A DNA stretch of 64,000 nt, taken from positions 61,392,754 to 61,456,753 of the forward strand of contig OY997596.1 in the NCBI GenBank assembly GCA_963921825.1. Direction: 5' to 3'. The DNA is from Erodium maritimum (lineage: Eukaryota; Streptophyta; Magnoliopsida; Geraniales; Geraniaceae). Of this stretch, positions 6,044-61,800 are shown piece by piece. Numbering within the stretch: the stretch's first letter is position 1; each line of letters starts with the position of its first letter. The position numbers were made by a program, and so were the translations under genes. Under the pieces are notes generated by a model. It had not been told where the DNA came from. It searched no databases and saw only the letters and a list, made by a program, of their open reading frames with translations.

Positions 6044-6965
6044 TACAGCAAATTTCGCCTTAGCTCACTGAAAACCCAGAAACAATGGTGGATCAGGAAA
6101 TGGTATCAAGTATCAATAGCAACAAAAAGCACTGAACTCGAAACTGAATAAAGTAGATTCATGATCTAAGTAACCAAGTTAAGTATAGGTCATAAAAACT
6201 CAACAATGGAGTACAAAAACACAGCTGTGTACACAAACACACACAACATAAATCCATCGCAGCAATTTTTGCCTTAGCTCACTGGAAACCCAGAAACAAT
6301 GGTGGATCAGGAAATGGTATCAACAGCAACAAAAAAGCACCGAACTCAAATCTGAATAGAGTAGAGTCAGGATCTAAGTAACCGAGTTAAGTAGAGGTCC
6401 CAGAAATTCATCAATGGAGTAAAAAAACACAGTTGTGGCACACAAACACAATAAAAATACTTGCAGGAGAGGTCTAGCACAAGCTCGAATCTAAGCATCT
6501 GGAGATATATCAAACAAAAACCCCCAAGTGCACAGATCAAAGAAGCTCCAAAAAAATCCAACAACGGAGTAGAGTCATGATCTAAGTAACCAAGTTAAGT
6601 ATAAATCACAGAAGTTCAACAATGGAGTAAGAAAAACACAGCTGTGTCACACAAATCATACACAAACATAACAAAATACTAGCAGGAAAGTTCTAGCACA
6701 AGCTCGAATCTAAGCATCTAGACAAAAACCCAAGTACCCAGATCAACGAAGCTCCTAAAAATCCAACAATGGAGTAGAATCATGATCAAGTAACCAAGTT
6801 AAGTATAGGTCACAGAAATTCAACAATGGAGTAAAAAAAACACAGCTGTGTCACACAAATCACACGCAAAAACAATAAAATACTTGCAGAAAAGTTCTAG
6901 CACAAGCTCGAATCTAACAAAAACCACAAGTACCCAGATCAACGAAGCTCATAAAAATCCAAAAT
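6030..6965. repeat. Tandem repeats over the AGPase start codon and leader
   Basis: About four degenerate units of roughly 200 bp. The phrase TGATCTAAGTAACCAAGTTA recurs near 6161, 6372 (variant), 6580 and 6781. CAGCTGTGT and TCTAGCACAAGCTCGAATCT also recur. The unit nearest the gene (period 214) includes the annotated start: the CAT at 6041-6043 is copied at 6255-6257, and the likely leader splice acceptor at 6068-6069 is copied at 6282-6283. The region is probably leader intron plus 5' UTR. Confidence 0.8.
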
Positions 6966-22583: not shown

Positions 22584-22655
22584 ATGGAAGTAAATCAAGT
22601 CCCTTGCATGAATGGTGGTGATGGAGCAACCAGCTACACCCACAACTCCCACATC

Positions 22656-22721
<66 letters not shown>

Positions 22722-24932
22722 TGTAATAACTCTCTTCTTCTTCCTCAGGAACAAGCCATGATGAGAGCAAAACCCACACTACAACAAGCTCTGGAGCATC
22801 TCTGCCTCACCGATCCATTACCAAGGTGCCTCAAAGTAGCAGACCTCGGGTGTTCTTCAGGACCCAACACACTCACAACAATGTCACGAATCATGGACAT
22901 CATCGAAGCCACGTGCAAGAACATGGATCAGAGACCAAAACCCATGTTCCAGTTTTTCCTCAATGACCTTCCTTCCAATGATTACAACTCGATCTTTCGA
23001 TCTCTGCCTAGGTTTCTCGAGGAGTTTAAGGAGGAAAAAAGAGGAGCTGAGATGGGTTCGAAATGTTTCGTGGCTTGCGTGGCTGGTTCGTTCTATGGGA
23101 GGCTCTTCCCTGATCTGTCCCTACACTTTGTTCACTCCTCTTATAGCCTTCATTGGCTCTCCAAGGTCGGTCCATGGGTTTTCTTCTGGTCGATTGTAAA
23201 ATAACCTCCATTTGAGTTGTTCTTACGGTTGCGTTTCTACCGAATCGTGAAATCTCGACCGACCTAGGTCTTTGCAGGGCCGGCCCAACAAATTTAGAGG
23301 CCCAAAGGAGCGGTTTATATAAGTTCTTATTTTATGAAAAATCTTTGAATCTGGTTATGATCACATAAGGTCGGTCCATGGGTTTTCTGCGGGTCGATTG
23401 TAAAATAACCTCCATTTGAGTTGTTCTTACGGTTGCGTTTCTACCGAATCGTGAAATCTCGACCGACCTAGGTCTTTGCAGGGCCGGCCCAACAAATTTA
23501 GAGGTCCAAAGGAGCGGTTTATATAAGTTCTTATTTTATGAAAAATCTTTGAATCTGGTTATGATCACATAAGGTCGGTCCATGGGTTTTCTGCGGGTCG
23601 ATTGTAAAATAACCTTCGTTTGAGTTGTTCTTACGATTGCGTTTCTACCGAATCATGAAATCTCGACCGACCTAGGTCTTTGCAGGGCCGGCCCAACAAA
23701 TTTAGAGGCCCAAAGGAGCGGTTTATATAAGTTCTTATTTTATGAAAAATCTTTGAATCTGGTTATGATCACATAAGGTCGGTCCATGGGTTTTCTGCGG
23801 GTCGATTGTAAAATAACCTTCGTTTGAGTTGTTCTTACGATTGCGTTTCTACCGAATCATGAAATCTCGACCGACCTAGGTCTTTGCAGGGCCGACACAA
23901 CAAATTTAGAGGCCCAAATGAGCGGTTTATATAAGTTCTTATTTTACGAAAAAATCTTTTAATCTGGTTATGATCAAATAAGGTCGGTCCATGGGTTTTC
24001 TTCTGGTCGATTGTAAAATAACCTCCATTTGACTTGTTCTTACGGTTGCGTTTCTACCGAATCATGAAATCTCGACCGACCTAGGTCTTTGCAAGGCCGA
24101 CACAACAAATTTAGAGGCCCAAAGGAGCGGTTTATATAAGTTCTTATTTTACGAAAAATCTTTGAATCTGGTTATGATCAAATAAGGTCGGTCCATGGGT
24201 TTTCTTCTGGTCGATTGTAAAATAACCTCCATTTGAGTTACTCTTACGGTTGCGTTTTTATCGAATCATGAAATCTCGACCGACTTAGGTCTTTGCAGGG
24301 CCGACACAACAAATTTAGAGGCCCAAATGAGCGGTTTATATAAGTTCTTATTTTACGAAAAATCTTTTAATCTGGTTATGATCAAATAAGGCTTTTATAA
24401 TACTGATTGAATAAAATAAGTTTTGGGGCTTTTATATTTATTGATAATTGATAAAAACAAATTAATTTAAATATTTGGAGCCTTGTGTGAATGAGTGCCT
24501 TAAGTCATTGCTTAAATGACTTAAGAGTTGAGACGGTCTTGGGTCTTTGCCCGATCAGACAAGACCTGACATCACTACACAGTAAAATTATTTTACCGAG
24601 TGATTTGAAGAATTGAATCGGTAATGAAATATTCATCATCGGCCTCATTTGTATAAGCCGATAATGAAATAACTATTCTGACTCAATATGAGGTTCTTTG
24701 GTAATAAACCATTCATTACCGACTCAATTTTATGTCCCCTAGTGATAAAAGGTTTCATTGCCGAGTGACCTTATATTGATTAAGTAACAAAACATTTATT
24801 ACCGACCAATTATTGCTTGGTAATGAAACTTTTAATCACCGATTAAATATATATATTAGTCTATAATGTACTGTTCTGTTGCTTATTTAATTATAGCTCT
24901 AATTAGTAATTTCCTAAAACCTTAAACTTCTA

Positions 24933-24975
<43 letters not shown>

Positions 24976-26781
24976 TATAATATGTGGATCTTATCATGTT
25001 TGTAAGTATTTTGAAGTCTCCATCGGTTGTAGTTTGATTTTTTTTTGAAAGAATTGAAGTTATCGTGATTGTTATGAATTTGTTTTGTGTAAAAACCTAC
25101 ATGTGACGGGGATTTTTTTAATCCAATCTTGCAGGACGATAAATTGATTATCATGTATAGATAATTCCACGAACCATACCTATCAGATCGAAATTTTAAG
25201 TAGGTGAATCGATGGTACTAATTCATGGGTTGTTTGTGTGTGATTAGGTTCCCGAAGAACTTGGAAGTGGATCTATCGGGGCTGCATCGAACAAAGAAAA
25301 CATTTACATATCGAAAACGAGCCCTCTTGTTGTTCTCGAAGTGTATTTGGGTCAATTCGAGCTCGATTTCTCGTTATTCTTGAGATGTCGGGCGGAGGAG
25401 GTGATCCCTAGCGGCCATATGTTTCTCACACTTGTTGGGAGAGACGAGAGATTCGACCCATCTTCGGACCAAAAGAGATGTACTGTTTGGGAGTTACTAG
25501 GAAACACTCTCCATGACATGGTTGTAGAGGTACGAGAATCTCTCTCCCTGTTTTTTTGTCGATAAAAAAGGGGGGAAATTACATTTTATATTTTGGGTAT
25601 TTTCAATTTATTACTCCATATTTTAAAAACATAATTTCACCTCAGTACTTTAAATATTTTATATTTTATTTAGAATACTTTAATTATTTTTTGTCATCTC
25701 AGTTTCATTAATTCATGTAGAGTACCTTAAATATTTTTTATGTCACCTACCTTAAATTTGATTGTTAGTAAATAATATTATGGTCATTTTATCAGTTTTG
25801 GATGGAAAATCAGATGAAAAGTTAACAGTGGGTATTAAAATAAAATTAATAAAAATTCAGGGTACCGAGATGACAAAACAAAAATTTAGGGTACTCTAAA
25901 TGAATTAATAAAAGCTTAGGGTATTGGGGTGACAAAAAAAAAATAAGGTACTCTAAATGAAATGTAAAAAATTTAAAAGCTGAGGTGGAATTATCCCTAT
26001 TTTAAATCGTATGAATTTATCTCGACGAAATCGGTTTTTGTTTCGGTTTTCCATAGTTACAAAAAATATTTTGAGGTGTTCATTTTTTTTGTAATCTGTA
26101 GCTATATTCCGCGATATTGTAAAAAAGTACTTTTAATCTGTCTTTCTTTTTTGTAATTTGTATAAAAATGACGGTCTTAAACTTACATATTATAGTAAAA
26201 AATAAAAGAAATTATCATATCCCTTTATTTTCTTCTTCTTCATACCGTACTAAGAGTAACTTCTTTAAAGTTTTGATTTTTTTTTGTTCCTTAATTGATA
26301 TATTTAATCTTTCAATTTCTAAGGGTAAAATTATGAATTTAAAGCATATTTATGCAATACAATACAAAAAGATAAGTTCAGGGTAATGTTTTATCATTGT
26401 TCCTAAACTATCATATGAATGAATTTATAGGGCATCATAGAGGAGAAGAAGTTGAACTCATTCAACCTACCATACTATGCACCCGCAATAACAGACGTCC
26501 AGCGCGTGGTAGAAAGAGAAGGGTCATTCATCGTCCATCGACTCGAGACCTTCGAAATGGATTGGAAAGTTAAAAACAATGGCGACAACGGGTTAGAAAA
26601 AGGAAGGAGCGTCGCAACGAGCGTTAGAGCCGTTATAGAACCTCTTCTAACAAGTCATTTCGGCAAAGATGAAACGATAATGGATCGTTTGTTCCATAGG
26701 TTTGCAGAGAAGATAACAGAGTACCTGAAGACAGAGAGAGGTGTGTGCACGAATATCGTCGTCTCCTTGATCAAGAAATGA
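22584..26781 (+). CDS. SABATH-family carboxyl methyltransferase
   Basis: Uses S-adenosylmethionine to methylate a small carboxylic acid; the family includes salicylate, jasmonate and loganate enzymes. Four exons (22584-22658, 22749-23165, 25248-25529, 26431-26781) give 374 aa, normal for SABATH. Exon 1 has GATSYTHNSHIQ, the SAM/substrate-binding start. Residues 57-66 are the DLGCSSGPNT SAM motif. NDLPSNDYN and SYSLHWLSKVP (Trp161) follow, then IYISKTSP and a C-terminal all-alpha cap. The acid substrate cannot be told from sequence. Intron 1 is only 90 bp and made mostly of CT and CA dinucleotides. Intron 2 carries a six-copy 204-bp array plus a hAT MITE, and intron 3 a family A MITE. A TATATATC near 22531 could be the TATA box. 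Confidence 0.92.
22659..22748 (+). repeat. (CT)n(CA)n microsatellite forming intron 1
   Basis: About 14 CT and 12 CA units fill most of the SABATH intron 1, between GTCTCT and TTCTTCCTCAG. The intron is 90 bases, a multiple of three, with no stop codon in the reading frame. If retained it would add a Ser-Leu and His-Thr repeat of 30 residues. Confidence 0.9.
23165..24391 (+). repeat. Six tandem copies of a 204-bp unit at a splice donor
   Basis: Units begin at 23165, 23369, 23573, 23777, 23982 and 24186 with GGTCGGTCCATGGGTTTTCT and are nearly identical. The first unit starts on the last base of SABATH exon 2. About 130 bp of each unit is intron start and about 75-95 bp is the left end of a hAT MITE (CAGGGCCGGCCC...), whose complete copy survives only after the last unit. 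Confidence 0.95.
24296..24541. mobile_element. hAT-like MITE, 8-bp TSD, in SABATH intron 2
   Basis: The ends are CAGGGCCGACAC (CAGGGCCGGCCC in earlier array copies) and GAGACGGTCTTG. They are imperfect inverted repeats. The flanks are a perfect 8-bp duplication, GGTCTTTG (24288-24295, 24542-24549). A TGCCTTAAGTCATTGCTTAA-type stem lies near the right end. Confidence 0.8.
24568..24860. mobile_element. Possible CACTA-type fragment
   Basis: It starts CACTACACAGTAAAATTATT and then repeats TTACCGA/ATTACCGAC and GGTAATGAAA several times, like the subterminal repeats of CACTA elements. No second end is seen. Confidence 0.4.
24936..24973. repeat. (AT)n microsatellite
   Basis: About 18 AT units in SABATH intron 2. 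Confidence 0.9.
25610..25998. mobile_element. Family A MITE in SABATH intron 3
   Basis: Inverted arms with TTTCACCTCAGTACTTTAAA on the left and GAGGTGGAATTATCCC on the right. The interior matches the element at 13758. No clear target duplication. Confidence 0.65.
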
Positions 26782-33850: not shown

Positions 33851-33861
33851 GACTGCAACGG

Positions 33862-34165
33862 ATAATGAATATTTAAATTAAATAAAAAATTAGTAAAAAC
33901 GTGTAATAATAAATCAAAGGGTCAAACACAAAAATTTACCCTAAAGTATTGATCACATAGGGATAAAATTTCGATACTTTTAAATTCATAAAAACGTATA
34001 AAATGATTTGTTGATAATGAATATTTGAATTAAATAAAAAAAAACTAGTAAAACGTTTAATAATAAATCAAAGGGTCAAACACAAAAATCTACCCTAAAG
34101 TATTGATCACATACTAGATAAAATTTCAATACTTATAAATTCATAAAAACGTATAAATGATTTGT
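33862..34165. repeat. 153-bp tandem duplication upstream of SFH
   Basis: GATAATGAATATTTAAATTA at about 33860 and GATAATGAATATTTGAATTA at about 34013 begin two copies. Both contain AATCAAAGGGTCAAACACAA and TACCCTAAAGTATTGATCAC. Confidence 0.85.
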
Positions 34166-35923: not shown

Positions 35924-36513
35924 TATAAAAATGTGAGTCTCACATCGAAGGTGTGTGAATAAATTGACCCATTGATATATATCTTGATGCCTCCACCCAT
36001 CAGTTCGAGCTTTTTGGTTGGATAGGGCTTTAACATGGTATCATAGATGGTTCGGCCTACGACCTGTTTGTCGCCTCCATCCTATGGTCTCCGTCCTATA
36101 TATGCAAATGTCCAGTCCTGCTATGACCCACGTGTAGATGTCCAGTCCTACACGTGAGGGGAAATGTTAAAATGTGAGTCTCACATCGAAAATGTGTGGA
36201 TAAATTGACTCATTGGTATACATCTTGATGCCTCCACCCATGAATTCGAGCCTTTGGGTTGGATAGGGCTTTAACATGGTATCATAGCTTGTTCAGAATA
36301 TGGCTTGTTTGTCGCCTTCACCCTGTGGTCTCCGGCTTATATGCAGATGTCCAGTCCTGCAATGGCCCACGTGTAGATGTCCAGTCCTACACGTGAGGAG
36401 GAGTGTTAAAATGTGAGTCTCACGTCAAAAGTGTGTGGATAAATTGACTCATTGATATACATCTTGACGTCTCCACCCATCCGTTCGAACTTTTGAGTTG
36501 GATTGGGCTTTAA
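35924..36513 (+). mobile_element. TRIM retrotransposon array: three LTRs, two interiors
   Basis: LTR copies lie at about 35924-36035, 36165-36276 (112 bp) and 36404-36513, with a period near 240 bp. Each has TGTGAGTCTCACATCGAA and TTGGATAGGGCTTTAACA. The first two are followed directly by TGGTATCATAG, an initiator-tRNA-Met-type primer site. Interiors of about 128 bp share GTAGATGTCCAGTCCTACAC and encode nothing. Confidence 0.8.
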
Positions 36514-50849: not shown

Positions 50850-51515
50850 TCCAAGCTCAACTTTTGACCATCGTCCTTAAATTTTCAATGAAACCCCAAC
50901 CTAGCTATTGGCTTGTTTATGCTCAATTGCACAATAGGAAAGCGAAGGCGTTGAGCTAGCGAGAGCTCATAACCCAGAAAAGTTCCATAAATCATTAACA
51001 TTACAAGCTTACTTTTGATAATCACCATAAATTTTCAATTAAAACCCAGTCTATCTCTTGGCTTGTTGAAGCTCAACTGCACAATTAGAGAGTGGAGACA
51101 TTGAGCTAGCGAGAGCTCAGAACCCAGAAAAGTCCCATGAATCATTAACATTACAAGCTTATTTTTACAAACACCATTAAACTTCCAATCAAAACCCAAC
51201 CTAGCTCTTGGATTGTTGAAGCTCAACTCCACAATTAGAAAGCGGAGACATTGAGCTAGCGAGAGCTCAAAACCCATAAAATTTCCACTAATCATCAACA
51301 TTACAAGTTTCGATTTTTCCAAATTCCCAAATGTCCTAAAGATGCAGAAATCAAAATCCAAGCTCAACTTTTCACAAACACCCTCAAATTTTCAATCAAA
51401 ACCCAACCTAGTTCTCGGGTTGTTGAAGCTCAGCTGCACAATGGGAACGCGAAGACACTAAGCTAGCGAGAGCTCAGAACCCAGAAAAGTTCCATGAATC
51501 GTTAAAATTGCAAGC
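50850..51515. repeat. Four ~150-bp tandem repeats in CLP1 leader intron
   Basis: The core AGCTAGCGAGAGCTCA recurs near 50954, 51104, 51254 and 51461, each with AACCCAGAAAAGT-CCATGAATC-like text after it and TGTTGAAGCTCA before it. The last gap is about 60 bp longer. Confidence 0.85.
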
Positions 51516-54361: not shown

Positions 54362-57300
54362 ATGTCAACTCAGTCTCAGCTCCTCTCTCTTCCTCACTCT
54401 CAGCTTCTACGATCCCTCCCTTCCCTTCCAAATCAATCGATTACTCAGCTTCCAAGCAATCACCTCTCCTTCTCGTCCTCAGCCCTAAAATTTCCCCCAA
54501 TCCGTGGCCGGACCAGGTTCACTCCCGCAATGGCCTCCAATTCGAAGCTCTCTGGCGCCGGCGACGTCGTCCAGGTGGCGCTTAACGGCGACGAGCTCGA
54601 CCGTTTTGCCGCCGTGGGCAACAAGGTGGCTGACGCCGCCGGAGAGGTGATTCGTCAGTATTTCAGGAAGAAATTTGATATCATCGACAAAGAGGATCTG
54701 AGTATGTATCGTTTTCGAAATGTTGAGATTATCAGTCTCGAGTTTAGGATTTTTGATTCGTTCCGTGATTGAATGCATTTTTGCGGAGCTTGAGGAATTA
54801 TAGATTAGTCATGCATTGTTTGCTTAAACCTCTAATTTTCAAGTATTTTACTTGTTTTTTGTAATGAAATTTGATGATATGAGTTCCAATTTTCTCTTCC
54901 AAGACACAGTGAAGAAAATTTATATTATCGTGATTGATTTACCTGTTTCCGGGATGAAGATTGATAAGAAAATTCCTTATACTTCAATTTCATTGATATG
55001 ATTTCTAATAACTCCTCAAAAAAACTGTGATTGTCATGTCACTTTTTCTACTTGATTTGCCGCAGGTCCTGTAACAATTGCAGATCGGGCCGCAGAGGAA
55101 TGTATGATCTCCATCCTGTTAGAAAATTTTCCTTCTCATGCTGTGTAAGTATTGTGCATGAAATGAGCCTAGTAGTATAATCTTTTCAGCAAAACAATAT
55201 GATTACTCGTAGAATATTAGGGAATCACAATTAGTTTTCAAGTTTAAGTTTGTATTCCATCCGTCCCAAAATAAACGTCTCATTTTACTATTTGTAAATG
55301 TTAAGGATTCGATTATTAGTACTTGATATTCCAACATTTTCCATACGTGCTTTCATGTCCCCTGCTACTCAAGATGTTAAAACTAGTTGAAGGGATATTC
55401 TTCATAATTCATGGATAAATCACGAGTTGACACGTTCAGTTTGGTTGGACGGAGTATTATATTTCCACATATGCTTGAATAATTGAGCATCCTCTTAATT
55501 GATGTCAAAAGGAAAGGTGCATTTGCGTTCTTGTCTTTGCAGGTTATCTTACAAGACTTATATGTATACTTTGTTTTATCTCACTACCTTACCCAGGCCA
55601 GAAGCAAAAGATAACTGAAAGTTTAGTATATTTAAATTTATACTCCTTGGTAATTTCGGAGAATTCATTGCTTATATTCTTCTTCTCATGTAATTATAAA
55701 AGATTTATGTCACAGGTATGGAGAGGAGAACGGGTGGAGGTGTAAAGAAAAGTCCGCAGACTATGTATGGGTTTTAGATCCAATAGATGGAACAAAGAGT
55801 TTTATTACTGGTATTTCTCTTCTCTCTTGCCTTCTCATGGTTCGGAGCTGTAACGTTTTTGTCTGAATGTTGTATATGTCATTTCAGGCAAACCCTTATT
55901 TGGTACTCTCATTGCCTTGCTACACAAGGGTAAACCGGTGAGATCATTTATTACCTAACATGCTTGAAATAAAGAGTTAACTTTCTCCATGCACATGTTA
56001 TTTATATGGAAAAAATCTCATGTACATACTCACTTTGACCTTTTATTATCAATAACACCCCCTAAAGGTCGGTGTGTATCAATAACAAACTGTCACCTTT
56101 CACTATCTTAAATAACTCACTCTAAAGGCGGGTTTCGCATAAAAAAAAACCTGTTTCGGGGCGATACACCCCAATTTTTTGGCCGAAACCCCGATTTTTG
56201 AGTGGGTTTTTGATGATATCGAAAGGTGACAATGTGTTATTGATACGCAATGACCTTTACTGTGTGTTATTGGTAACAAAGGTCAAAGTGGGTGCGTTGA
56301 TGAAATTACCCCTATTTATTTTCATGTTTAAACGTGAGAGATGAGAAATAAGCTGCTAGGTGTAGTGATATGTTTTCAGCCTGTTATTTTAGGTTGTCTG
56401 AAACAACTTTTCATACTTTAATGTAGATGTAGTCTACTTAAAATGACAAGGATATTTCTTCAGATTCTTGGCATTATCGATCAACCCATTTTGAGAGAAA
56501 GATGGATTGGGATAATAGGAAGGAGAACTACATTGAATGGGCAAGAAGTGTCGACTCGTCCTTGTGCCGAACTATCACAGGCATATATGTATGTCTTCTG
56601 ATCTAGTTATTCTTATGGAATAAAAAGGCTCGTGGTGTAGGATTCGAGGCACTTGATCTTGATGACAACTGACAAGTATCTTGGCTGTTTGACAAAATAG
56701 CTATATGTTTTTTTCGTTTCCATTTTTAGGTACACTACAAGTCCTCATCTTTTTACGGGAGAAGCTGAAGAAGCATTTATCCGTGCTAGAAGCCAGGTTA
56801 GTGTACTTAAGTTGAATACATTTCTATATTAAACATTCTATCAGTAGTTAATTATCTGTAATCTAGAAAATTTACCATTATATTTGGTTTTCGGAAATAT
56901 CCGTTTATGGGAACACATTTAGTAACACTACTACTTTGGCTTTTGATTTGAGGTAACTCTAAGGCGAAAACCCGAAACTTGGAAAGTTAGATATGAAAAG
57001 TGGAAACTAATCATAGGCATATAGCCATTGGGCTGCAATTTTTGACGGTTGAGATTAAGTTTGGAACTTTCCAATGTTAAGTCACGCTTCCAAACATAAT
57101 TTGGGAACATCTCAGCTGTTGAAAAAACAAATCAATCCAATGGACACAGATGGTTTTCAGTTTTCATTCCAACCTTCGATTATTGTTTTTCTTTGATTCG
57201 CAATGCTTCAGCTTATTGTCAACCACACATAAATGTTAACTTTCTCTTATGTTCCTCTAATGCACAGGTGAAAGTTCCATTATATGGTTGTGACTGTTAC

Positions 57301-58836: not shown

Positions 58837-61800
58837 ATGGCCAAGCCTAAAGCTCCTAGAAAAGCCCTAGATTCCTACACCGTCAAGCACATCAACAAAA
58901 CAATCCGAGGTAAAATAAAAAAAAGTTACAGAGATTCGATTCAATTTTCGTCGAATTTCCTTCTGATTTGCGCCGTTTCCGCCGTGAACAGTCGGCGATT
59001 GCGTGCTGATGCGACCTTCGGAGCCGTCGAAACCGTCGTATGTGGCGAAGGTACAGGGAATCGAGGCGGACGCGCACGGCGGGAGCGTGCGGGTCCAGGT
59101 CCAATGGTACTACCGGCCGGAGGAGACGATCGGAGGTCGCCGGCAGTTTCACGGCTCGAAGGAGCTTTTCTTCTCCGATCACGTCGATTTTCAGAGCGCC
59201 GAGACGATCGAGGCCAAGTGTACGGTGCATAGCTTCAAGAGCTACACGAGGTTGGATGCGGTGGGGAACGAAGATTTCTTCTCTCGTTTTCTGTACAATT
59301 CGACTACCGGAGCCTTCGATCCAGACAGCGTGGCCGTGTATGTATGATGATTTGTTTGTTTATGATTCATTTGCTTCTGATTGCAATGATTTACTGTGGA
59401 AATTAGTTTGATTGAAGCTTTACTATCCTCCAAATTTGAATATGATTTCTGTTTTTTTTTCTAAGCTGATACTTATAGAAGGGAATTTATGGTTTTCAAT
59501 CGAGTTTGCATATTGATCATATACAATTGTGTCTCTATTGTGGAGGTTAGTTTGATTGGAGCTTTACCATCCCCAAATTTGAATATAATAATCAATTTTT
59601 TTTTGCTAAGCTTGGAGTCTGCAAAGAGAGTTGAGTTGATATGTATAGAAGGGAATTTATGGTTTTCGATTGAGTTAGCATATTGATCATATACAATTGT
59701 GTTTCTATTGTGGAGATTAGTTTGATTGGAGCTATACTATCCTCCAAATTTGAATATGATTTTGATGTCTTTTGCTAATCTTGGAGTCTGCTAAAAGAGT
59801 TGAGTTGATACGTATAGAAGGGAATTTATGGTTTTTAATCGAGTTTTCATATTGATCATATACAATCGTGTGTATTGTGGAGATTAGTTTGATTGGAGCT
59901 TTAATATCCTCCAAATTTGAATATGATTTCCATTTTTTTGCTGAGCATGGAGTCTGCTTAGAGAGCTGAGTTGATACATATAGAAGGGAATTTGTGGTTT
60001 TTGAGCGAGTTGGGATATTGATCATATACAGTTATATCTCTATTGTGGAAATTAGTTTGGTTGGAGCTTTACTCTCCTCCAAATTTAAATATGATTTCGA
60101 TTTCTTGTGTAGCTTGGAATCTGCTGAGAGAGTTAAGTTAATTCGATCAAGTTTCTATAGTGATTATATACAATTGCGCTATTTGGTAGTGAAAATTGTT
60201 TGTCTTTTACCGCTGTAGAAGTTTGTGCTTAAATTCCAGTGCATATGTTGATTGACTGAAGAAATAACCCTAAAACAATTGGCTAACAAGTTAAAGTTTG
60301 CATCTTATGTTTTCCAAGCCTGAATTTCATGGTAATTTGCTATTGAGTTTGATGAAATTATACTGAATGTTTAGATATACTATGACTTTGAGGTGAGTTG
60401 CTTTTGTGCAATTTGATTGATATACTTTAGGGGTTAATTTAAGTAATAATTGAGTATGGAAATATCGATTCTCACCAAACTACAAAATTGCCAGTGCCGG
60501 ACTGCTAGCACATAAGCATGAGCTTCAGAAGGGAATTTGTAATTTAGCGAAGAGCCGGTTGATACTTATTAATGTTTTACAGTTCAGTTTACTTGTGCTT
60601 CTCGGGTTGATCTTTTGTATGCATGTTGCAGATATTGCAAATGTGAGATGCCATACAACCCTGATGATCTAATGGTTCAATGTGAAGGATGCACCGACTG
60701 GTAAGTAGATTTTTTTTTTGGATTATATTGATTGGAAGCTTCTGGTTGATTAGGGTCATGGTTCTCACTTTGATTGTCTGAATGAAGCTAACCTGCTAGC
60801 AGAGTATCTTGACCATTACAATTTCGATCTGGAAATTCTACCAGTTGGCTCCATTTTTATGGACATATTTGTATCATACGCGTATTAAAAATGTATGTAA
60901 TTAAGGGGTAACCCCAATAACACACCCCCCTTTCCCCCTTTATTAACACAAACTTTCTGTAAATGCTATTTGCTTGCAAAAACACAGTCATCTTTTATTT
61001 ATTGAAACAAAACAGCGGTTTCTGTAAATCAATCTGATGCTGTCAGATTTTTTTGCAAAAACTAATCTTCACCTTTGTTTTTAGGGGGGGTGTCTTTGAG
61101 AAAAACTTTGCAAAGGTGAAGATTAGTTTTTGCAAAAAACTGACGGTGTCAATACGATTTAACGGAAATTGTTGTTTTGTATGAATAAATGGAAGATGAA
61201 TGTGTGTTACAGATACCCCTCATCTATAGGGGTTCCTAAAACTTAAAGGTCGTCGAGGGGGTGTAAATAACGTTTTCCCTTTATTCTATTTGTTTGTTTT
61301 TTTTGTTATAACAGATTTTGTGCATTACACGTGTTTCAAAGTTAAGTTTATCAACCAATGTACTACTTAAGTGCATTACACGTGTTTTTTAAAACTCAAG
61401 TTATATCTCAGGTTTCATCCAGCTTGTTTACACATGACACCAGAGGAAGCAAAAAGACTTGACCACTTCTTCTGTGAAACTTGTTCTTCTGAAAATCAAA
61501 AGAAGTTGCAAAATTCTCATACTGCTTCTACAGAGTCTGATTCCAAGGTATTCTGTATAAACTTCTCTATTTTCATTTCAAATATTATGTTGGGTTAATT
61601 ACCTTTAGTACCCTGATGTATTGGTAACACTCCTTTAGTACCCTGATGTATTGGTAACGCTCTGGACAAAAATTTGGTCAAGTTTACGCCATTTTGATGA
61701 TCAGTGACCAATTCATAAAGGGTACTAAATGTGTGTTACCAAAACGTAAGGACTGTTATTGAACGTTATAAAACCTTGGGGTACTAAAGGTATGTTACCA

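Follow-up and report, generated by a model that had tools for sequence, protein, structure and literature searches.

The second intron of a SABATH methyltransferase gene of Erodium maritimum carries six head-to-tail units of a sequence in which one transposable element is nested within another. This array is very probably a low-copy, ordinary duplication of nested transposon sequence in an old intron, driven by microhomology and then extended by unequal exchange. It lies in a stretch of 64,000 nucleotides, referred to here as the window, which covers positions 61392754-61456753 of contig C9 in a genome of 763 Mb that is assembled in 40 contigs. The locus offers a readable case in which nested MITEs beside a splice donor gave rise to a tandem array, and target duplications establish in which order the events took place.

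The host gene (Methyltransf_7, PF03492) is complete, consists of four exons and occupies positions 22584-26781 on the + strand. Its spliced open reading frame of 374 amino acids has GT-AG introns and no internal stops, and a sequence comparison of its first 258 residues with solved structures puts salicylic acid carboxyl methyltransferase 1m6e at the top (E 1.8e-62). The exons are:

22584..22658, + strand, SABATH exon 1 (spliced 374-amino-acid reading frame, GT-AG introns)
22749..23165, + strand, SABATH exon 2, with the end ...LSK and AAG|GTCGGT (PF03492 E 1.9e-52, profile 2-124)
25248..25529, + strand, SABATH exon 3, with the real acceptor ATTAG|GTT (PF03492 profile 125-216; spliced reading frame)
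26431..26781, + strand, SABATH exon 4 and stop (PF03492 profile 231-335, from 26470; spliced reading frame)

The boundary between exon 2 and the 2082-bp intron 2 falls at 23165/23166, and the PF03492 profile runs without a gap across its positions 124 and 125 at this point. In 8 of the 9 paralogous SABATH loci examined, the equivalent end of exon 2 reads AAG|GT or CAG|GT and is followed by non-exon sequence; the next exon, and with it the far end of the intron, was placed by our script in only one of these eight (L016). Because the paralogous loci keep a donor at the same site, the donor of exon 2 most likely predates the array. At the SABATH paralogue L023, which is also on contig C9, exon 2 passes directly into exon 3 sequence with no intron 2, which suggests intron loss or a retrocopy. 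The 90-bp intron 1 of the host gene is mostly (TC)15 followed by (CA)15.5, located at 22660-22719 just behind the donor.

Both TRF and an alignment of the units recover the six-copy array that the earlier note had placed in intron 2. The unit length of 204 bp given there holds for five of the units, whereas unit 4 measures 205 bp:

23163..24391, + strand, six-unit head-to-tail array in intron 2 (TRF period 204, 6.0 copies, 96% matches, score 2183; alignment)
23165..23368, + strand, unit 1, with the real donor, 204 bp (unit alignment)
23369..23572, + strand, unit 2, 204 bp (unit alignment)
23573..23776, + strand, unit 3, 204 bp (unit alignment)
23777..23981, + strand, unit 4, 205 bp (unit alignment)
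23982..24185, + strand, unit 5, 204 bp (unit alignment)
24186..24389, + strand, unit 6, 204 bp, continuous with the remainder of the hAT MITE (unit alignment)

The TRF score of the array is the highest among the TRF rows of the window, and it is also above that of every array with a period of at least 80 in 190 kb of readable sampled sequence. Among the six aligned units 21 columns are variable, and units 2, 4, 5 and 6 each have private columns. On this variation, a chance repeat or a simple assembly duplication was rejected. The copy number of tandem arrays can be wrong in assemblies, but it is extremely unlikely that the extra units are an artefact of this kind, since the six units can be told apart by the variable columns and the array sits in a contig of 62.6 Mb. 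An Rfam search over the window detected no structured RNA at gathering scores, and a known structured RNA in the array was discarded because 23100-24600 yielded only two weak matches, both far under these scores; two weak matches at locus L022, described below, were likewise far below them.

With gaps uncounted, the units differ pairwise by 1.5-7.8% (identity 92.2-98.5%). The closest pair is formed by units 1 and 2 (3/204 differences) and the most distant by units 3 and 6 (16/204). Unit 4 is a mosaic, its left part being identical to that of unit 3 and its right part nearest to unit 6, and units 1 and 3 have identical right parts. The ancestral state of the MITE family is kept by units 1-3 at two columns and by units 4-6 at two others; because each group keeps different ancestral columns, neither is ancestral to the other. 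The mosaic units point to exchange or conversion after the first duplication.

Each unit comprises one base of exon (in the placement of the earlier note), 22 bp of old intron, about 87 bp of a dispersed element that we call A, and 94 bp of a hAT MITE. The right part of the unit had been described as half of a hAT MITE; it is indeed the left end of such an element, but with about 94 of 246 bp (38%) it falls short of half. The remainder of the unit had been taken for intron, and this view has to be given up, as only 22 bp are host intron and about 87 of the 109 bp are element A. The single complete local copy of the hAT MITE follows the array and has the 8-bp duplication GGTCTTTG on either side, just as had been proposed:

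24288..24295, + strand, left target-site copy GGTCTTTG, also found in units 1-5 (8-bp repeat; unit alignment)
24296..24541, + strand, complete hAT-type MITE of 246 bp (terminal inverted repeats CAGGGCCG.../...CGGTCTTG; 26 relatives aligned)
24542..24549, + strand, right target-site copy GGTCTTTG (8-bp direct repeat)

Searched against the genome, the array region gave at least 55 matches including the window itself (40 of 92 candidates were scored, and some matches are two pieces of one copy). The ends of 25 of 27 hAT MITE relatives lie no more than one base from the expected site. A direct repeat of 8 bp is present without mismatch in 21 of the 27, one of these repeats being an uninformative run of G, and with one mismatch in the other 6. 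The script that scored these repeats was run without a shuffled control; it could move a repeat by as many as 12 bases against a penalty, and did so by more than one base for L004 and L037 only. The terminal inverted repeats of the family end in CAGGGCCGGCCCAAC / GTTGAGCCGGCCCTG, and those of the window copy have diverged to CAGGGCCGACACAAC / GTTGAGACGGTCTTG. Plant hAT-superfamily MITEs have 8-bp target duplications and CAGGGCCGG-type terminal repeats, and they are short, non-coding and present in many copies. The window element is like them in all of these respects, its longest stop-free run in six frames being 40 codons. It is unlike its relatives in length (246 bp versus about 289 bp, owing to a deletion of about 44 internal bp) and in its divergence from the family consensus, which amounts to 17.1% versus 2.8-12.5% (mean 5.3%) for the 26 relatives from which this consensus was built (L004 was excluded, as its left terminal repeat is lost). 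The divergence together with the deletion indicates that the window copy is older or comes from a separate branch.

The hAT MITE is inserted in element A, of which the following parts can be recognized in intron 2:

23188..23274, + strand, unit 1 portion of MITE family A (its left end, with the hAT target), with counterparts in units 2-6 (aligned with the L022 intron and with dispersed copies)
24550..24615, + strand, part of the remaining A beyond the hAT insertion, decayed, end uncertain (joined-flank alignment to L022)

In the first search, the left part of the unit matched a single place outside the array, a stretch of 41 bp lying immediately downstream of the donor in an unrelated gene (L022). 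Joining the sequences to the left and right of the hAT MITE raises the alignment score with L022 to 52, from 39 for the left part alone, with a shuffled maximum of 26 (n = 300). The right flank alone scores 27 (shuffled maximum 23), but it does so at a different place in the flank. Because the right half of A has decayed in the window, the case for nesting comes from its left end and from the sequence that immediately follows the join. The L022 intron as query led to five further places in the genome, and L065 as query gave at least 45 matches including its own place (40 of 73 candidates were scored, and some matches are two pieces of one copy). Both L065 and L071 have an uninterrupted TCTTTGCTCGATCGGG where the window has TCTTTG, then the hAT MITE with the second target copy, and then CCCGATCAGA. 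Since these two copies run uninterrupted at the insertion site, the hAT MITE is placed inside an older element A.

Complete copies of A are about 245-260 bp long. The copy at L070 has terminal inverted repeats GGGGTAATTTGCAAAAT.../...GCAAATTACCCC and is the one clean case of a 9-bp target repeat (CAAAAGATA). Near repeats of 9 bp are seen at L066 (CAAACACAG/CAAACACTG) and at L065 (CCAAGATT, read by eye), and no direct repeat was detected around 5 of 12 genomic copies or at the window copy. Judged from these termini and repeats, A can provisionally be regarded as a Mutator-like MITE family. The L065 copy, on contig C1, lies within a foldback of about 650 bp (L065:13-668) with arms that are 63% identical, and this foldback is perhaps a bigger relative of A or another nest. 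We also considered A as a common feature of SABATH introns, which is ruled out by eight paralogous loci (L023, with no intron 2, being excluded). Over as much as 1310 bases of sequence downstream of the donor in these loci, the left part of the unit has no match above the shuffled range except at L019, where the initial bases at the donor alone account for a score of 17.0 compared to a maximum of 16.5 in 100 shuffles. A further decayed element may be present in intron 2 beyond the hAT MITE, at 24621-24806, where a 23-mer (GTAATAAACCATTCATTACCGAC and kin) occurs in three diverged copies together with an inverted pair.

The match at L022 is of interest in its own right. The segment L022:1498-1696 (contig C7, about 71333840-71334038) is an intron of 199 nt that is nearly all a copy of A. 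Apart from it, the L022 reading frame of 547 residues is uninterrupted, and the frame is restored upon removal of the intron. The protein is an NCS1-type transporter, with PF02133 profile positions 2-78 before the intron and 80-422 after it. CCAGGT is present at both ends of the intron, so that both of its splice sites read CCAG|GT; the status of CCAGGT as a target duplication is uncertain because the repeat script preferred TCCCGGTC/TCCAGGTC at equal score. We regard this intron as a candidate for one created by a transposon in a land plant. Within animals and land plants taken together, only two groups, both of them animals, have Introners according to the available text of the survey in PMC9860276.

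The limits of the duplicated segment are marked by a short sequence that the two breakpoints have in common:

23163..23166, + strand, AAGG microhomology, left copy, across the exon 2/intron 2 boundary (flanking bases differ on both sides)
24388..24391, + strand, AAGG microhomology, right copy, in the MITE interior (flanking bases differ on both sides)

The shared sequence is 4 bp and no more. All five junctions of the array read ...AAGG|TCGG, so that AAGGT, and thus AGGT, is present at 5 of 5. The earlier note let the units start exactly at the last base of exon 2. This is a valid placement, but it is one of five equivalent ones: any position within AAGG (23163-23166 = 24388-24391) serves equally well as the breakpoint, and the start at 23165 is not unique. 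The statement that each unit repeats AAG|GTCGGT was correct for all six unit starts, and the window has one further copy of this 9-mer outside the array, at 56065. When 20,000 random pairs of breakpoints were placed 100-239 bp apart in the SABATH gene, at least 4 bp were shared by 2.4% of them; at this chance rate, the 4-bp microhomology mildly favours a microhomology-mediated event.

A splice donor at the breakpoint and a unit of the form GT...AG are also expected under a splicing-linked origin, and a single case cannot separate the two. Under such an origin, the unit would be a 204-nt cryptic intron, from the donor to ATAAG in the hAT MITE, copied beside itself, with edges set by splicing signals and not by microhomology alone, and the resulting ladder of recursive splice sites or competing donors would tune the gene by copy number; we hold this to be highly improbable. 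The frequency of small arrays bears on the position at the donor. TRF was run on 20 stretches of 10 kb taken from two chromosomes, of which 190 kb were readable and 10 kb masked, and detected 10 arrays with a period of at least 80, with copy numbers of 4.6 or less and one array being cut by the end of a stretch. This density of about 1 per 19 kb would correspond to tens of thousands of arrays per genome if the sample is typical. Assuming splice donors on the order of 100,000 per genome, some tens of arrays would touch donors by chance, and the coincidence with a donor therefore needs no special cause. Since small arrays are common in this genome, the SABATH array is probably ordinary. The window itself holds five more low-copy arrays (periods 150-239, 2-4 copies), at 6359-6917, 33861-34165, 35928-36513, 50877-51307 and 59467-60139.

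The order of events suggested by the earlier note, MITE insertion first and amplification of the donor plus the left MITE end second, stood up, as only the last unit adjoins the right part of the MITE. The presence of the left 8-bp target copy in all six units also supports an insertion of the hAT MITE before the amplification. The nesting, the hAT insertion ahead of the duplication, the 4-bp microhomology and the mosaic units are seen in the sequence itself, and the following sequence of steps would account for them. Element A would have entered SABATH intron 2 at a distance of 22 bp from the donor, and the hAT MITE would then have inserted into A with an 8-bp duplication. Subsequently, AAGG in the hAT MITE would have been joined to AAGG at the exon 2 donor to give two units, presumably through microhomology-mediated tandem duplication or replication slippage as the repair pathway. 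Finally, unequal exchange and conversion would have led to six units with a mosaic structure.

The earlier note also read the near identity of the units as a sign of recent amplification. The unit alignment does provide dates, but they do not indicate a very recent origin. Plant substitution rates are 6.5e-9 to 1.5e-8 per site per year, and at these rates a divergence of 1.5% would correspond to about 0.5-1.1 Myr and one of 7.8% to about 2.6-6 Myr. Because the units have exchanged sequence, these ages are rough lower bounds for the first duplication. Given that the units are 1.5-7.8% apart and mosaic, with ages of about 0.5-6 Myr, the amplification was neither very recent nor a single event.

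The five extra donors that had been noted upstream of the real acceptor (25247/25248) do precede it. Each unit has the form GT...AG, and the 9-base donor is identical in all six units. Use of the later donors would add 204, 408, 612, 817 or 1021 nt, and any of the five would lead to an in-frame stop 12 residues past exon 2. Most likely, the first donor would still be joined to the acceptor at 25247/25248 as before, with the extra donors being silent or giving rise to low-level transcripts with the stop, and the array by itself most likely represents neutral intron content.

Alternatively, the array might alter splicing in such a way that the five extra donors compete and the output falls in proportion to copy number. 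The identity of the donors and the stop that each extra donor would introduce fit this possibility, and so does the predicted RNA structure. According to the fold prediction, most of the donor is paired in each of the six units, with a mean unpaired value of 0.07-0.15 compared to 0.31-0.69 at eight paralogous donors, so that the real donor may have no advantage. In a control with 100 shuffles downstream of the real donor the mean unpaired value was 0.34, and 1 of the 100 was as low. The donor of unit 1 is predicted to pair with GACCGACCT about 93 nt downstream, in a hairpin with a z of -2.42 (2 of 200 shuffles as low), and such hairpins might hide the donors. It should be noted here that these pairing predictions concern single strands and that the fold of the whole array was computed without shuffles. 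On the other hand, positions +3 and +4 of the donor are off consensus, only the real donor is preceded by an exon, and the complete reading frame is kept, which argues that the array is tolerated. Taken together, such competition appears unlikely. If copy number varies among plants, the locus would provide a natural series in which between one and six identical donors precede a single acceptor, and with it a test of the choice that plants make between identical 5' splice sites.

Recursive or stepwise splicing, in which the ATAAG|GTCGGT junctions would serve as acceptor and donor in contact and the 204-nt units would be removed singly, is very improbable. AG and GT are in direct contact at each junction, each unit is bounded by GT and AG, and the junction acceptors have 9-10 pyrimidines in 20 positions, compared to 10 for intron 3 and 11 for intron 2. 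However, the T content at the junctions is 7/20 as opposed to 10 (intron 1), 11 (intron 2) and 9 (intron 3) at the real acceptors, and the junction acceptor is AAG, which is rare, rather than TAG or CAG. The ratchet points of recursive splicing in Drosophila, as outlined in the available part of PMC8605326, resemble the array junctions in that an acceptor AG touches a donor GT. They are found predominantly in long introns, whereas the SABATH intron is short and has an AAG acceptor at its junctions.

Our reading of the array as a microhomology-driven duplication followed by unequal exchange can be set beside two further systems. In titles and the starts of abstracts of the open-licence literature, we did not find a comparable intronic MITE tandem array at a donor. 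According to the Rogers model, in the part of PMC4974935 that was available, the tandem duplication of an AGGT-containing segment of exonic sequence generates a new intron. The SABATH junctions are alike in having AG|GT, with GT and AG at the unit ends. Unlike the segments in that model, the SABATH unit contains no more than 3 exon bases, is otherwise intronic and sits within the existing intron 2; it is neither a duplicated exonic segment nor does its boundary give a new intron. Tandem repeats derived from MITEs are known as well, and the steps proposed for them include microhomology end joining and unequal exchange (PMC9659126, in its available text). In these repeats and satellites, as in the SABATH array, part of a non-autonomous DNA transposon has been amplified head to tail. 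The SABATH array differs from the satellites described there in that it consists of six units in one intron and combines two nested MITEs with a host donor. A MITE-derived tandem array is thus a known kind of structure, and the SABATH array is a further instance of it.
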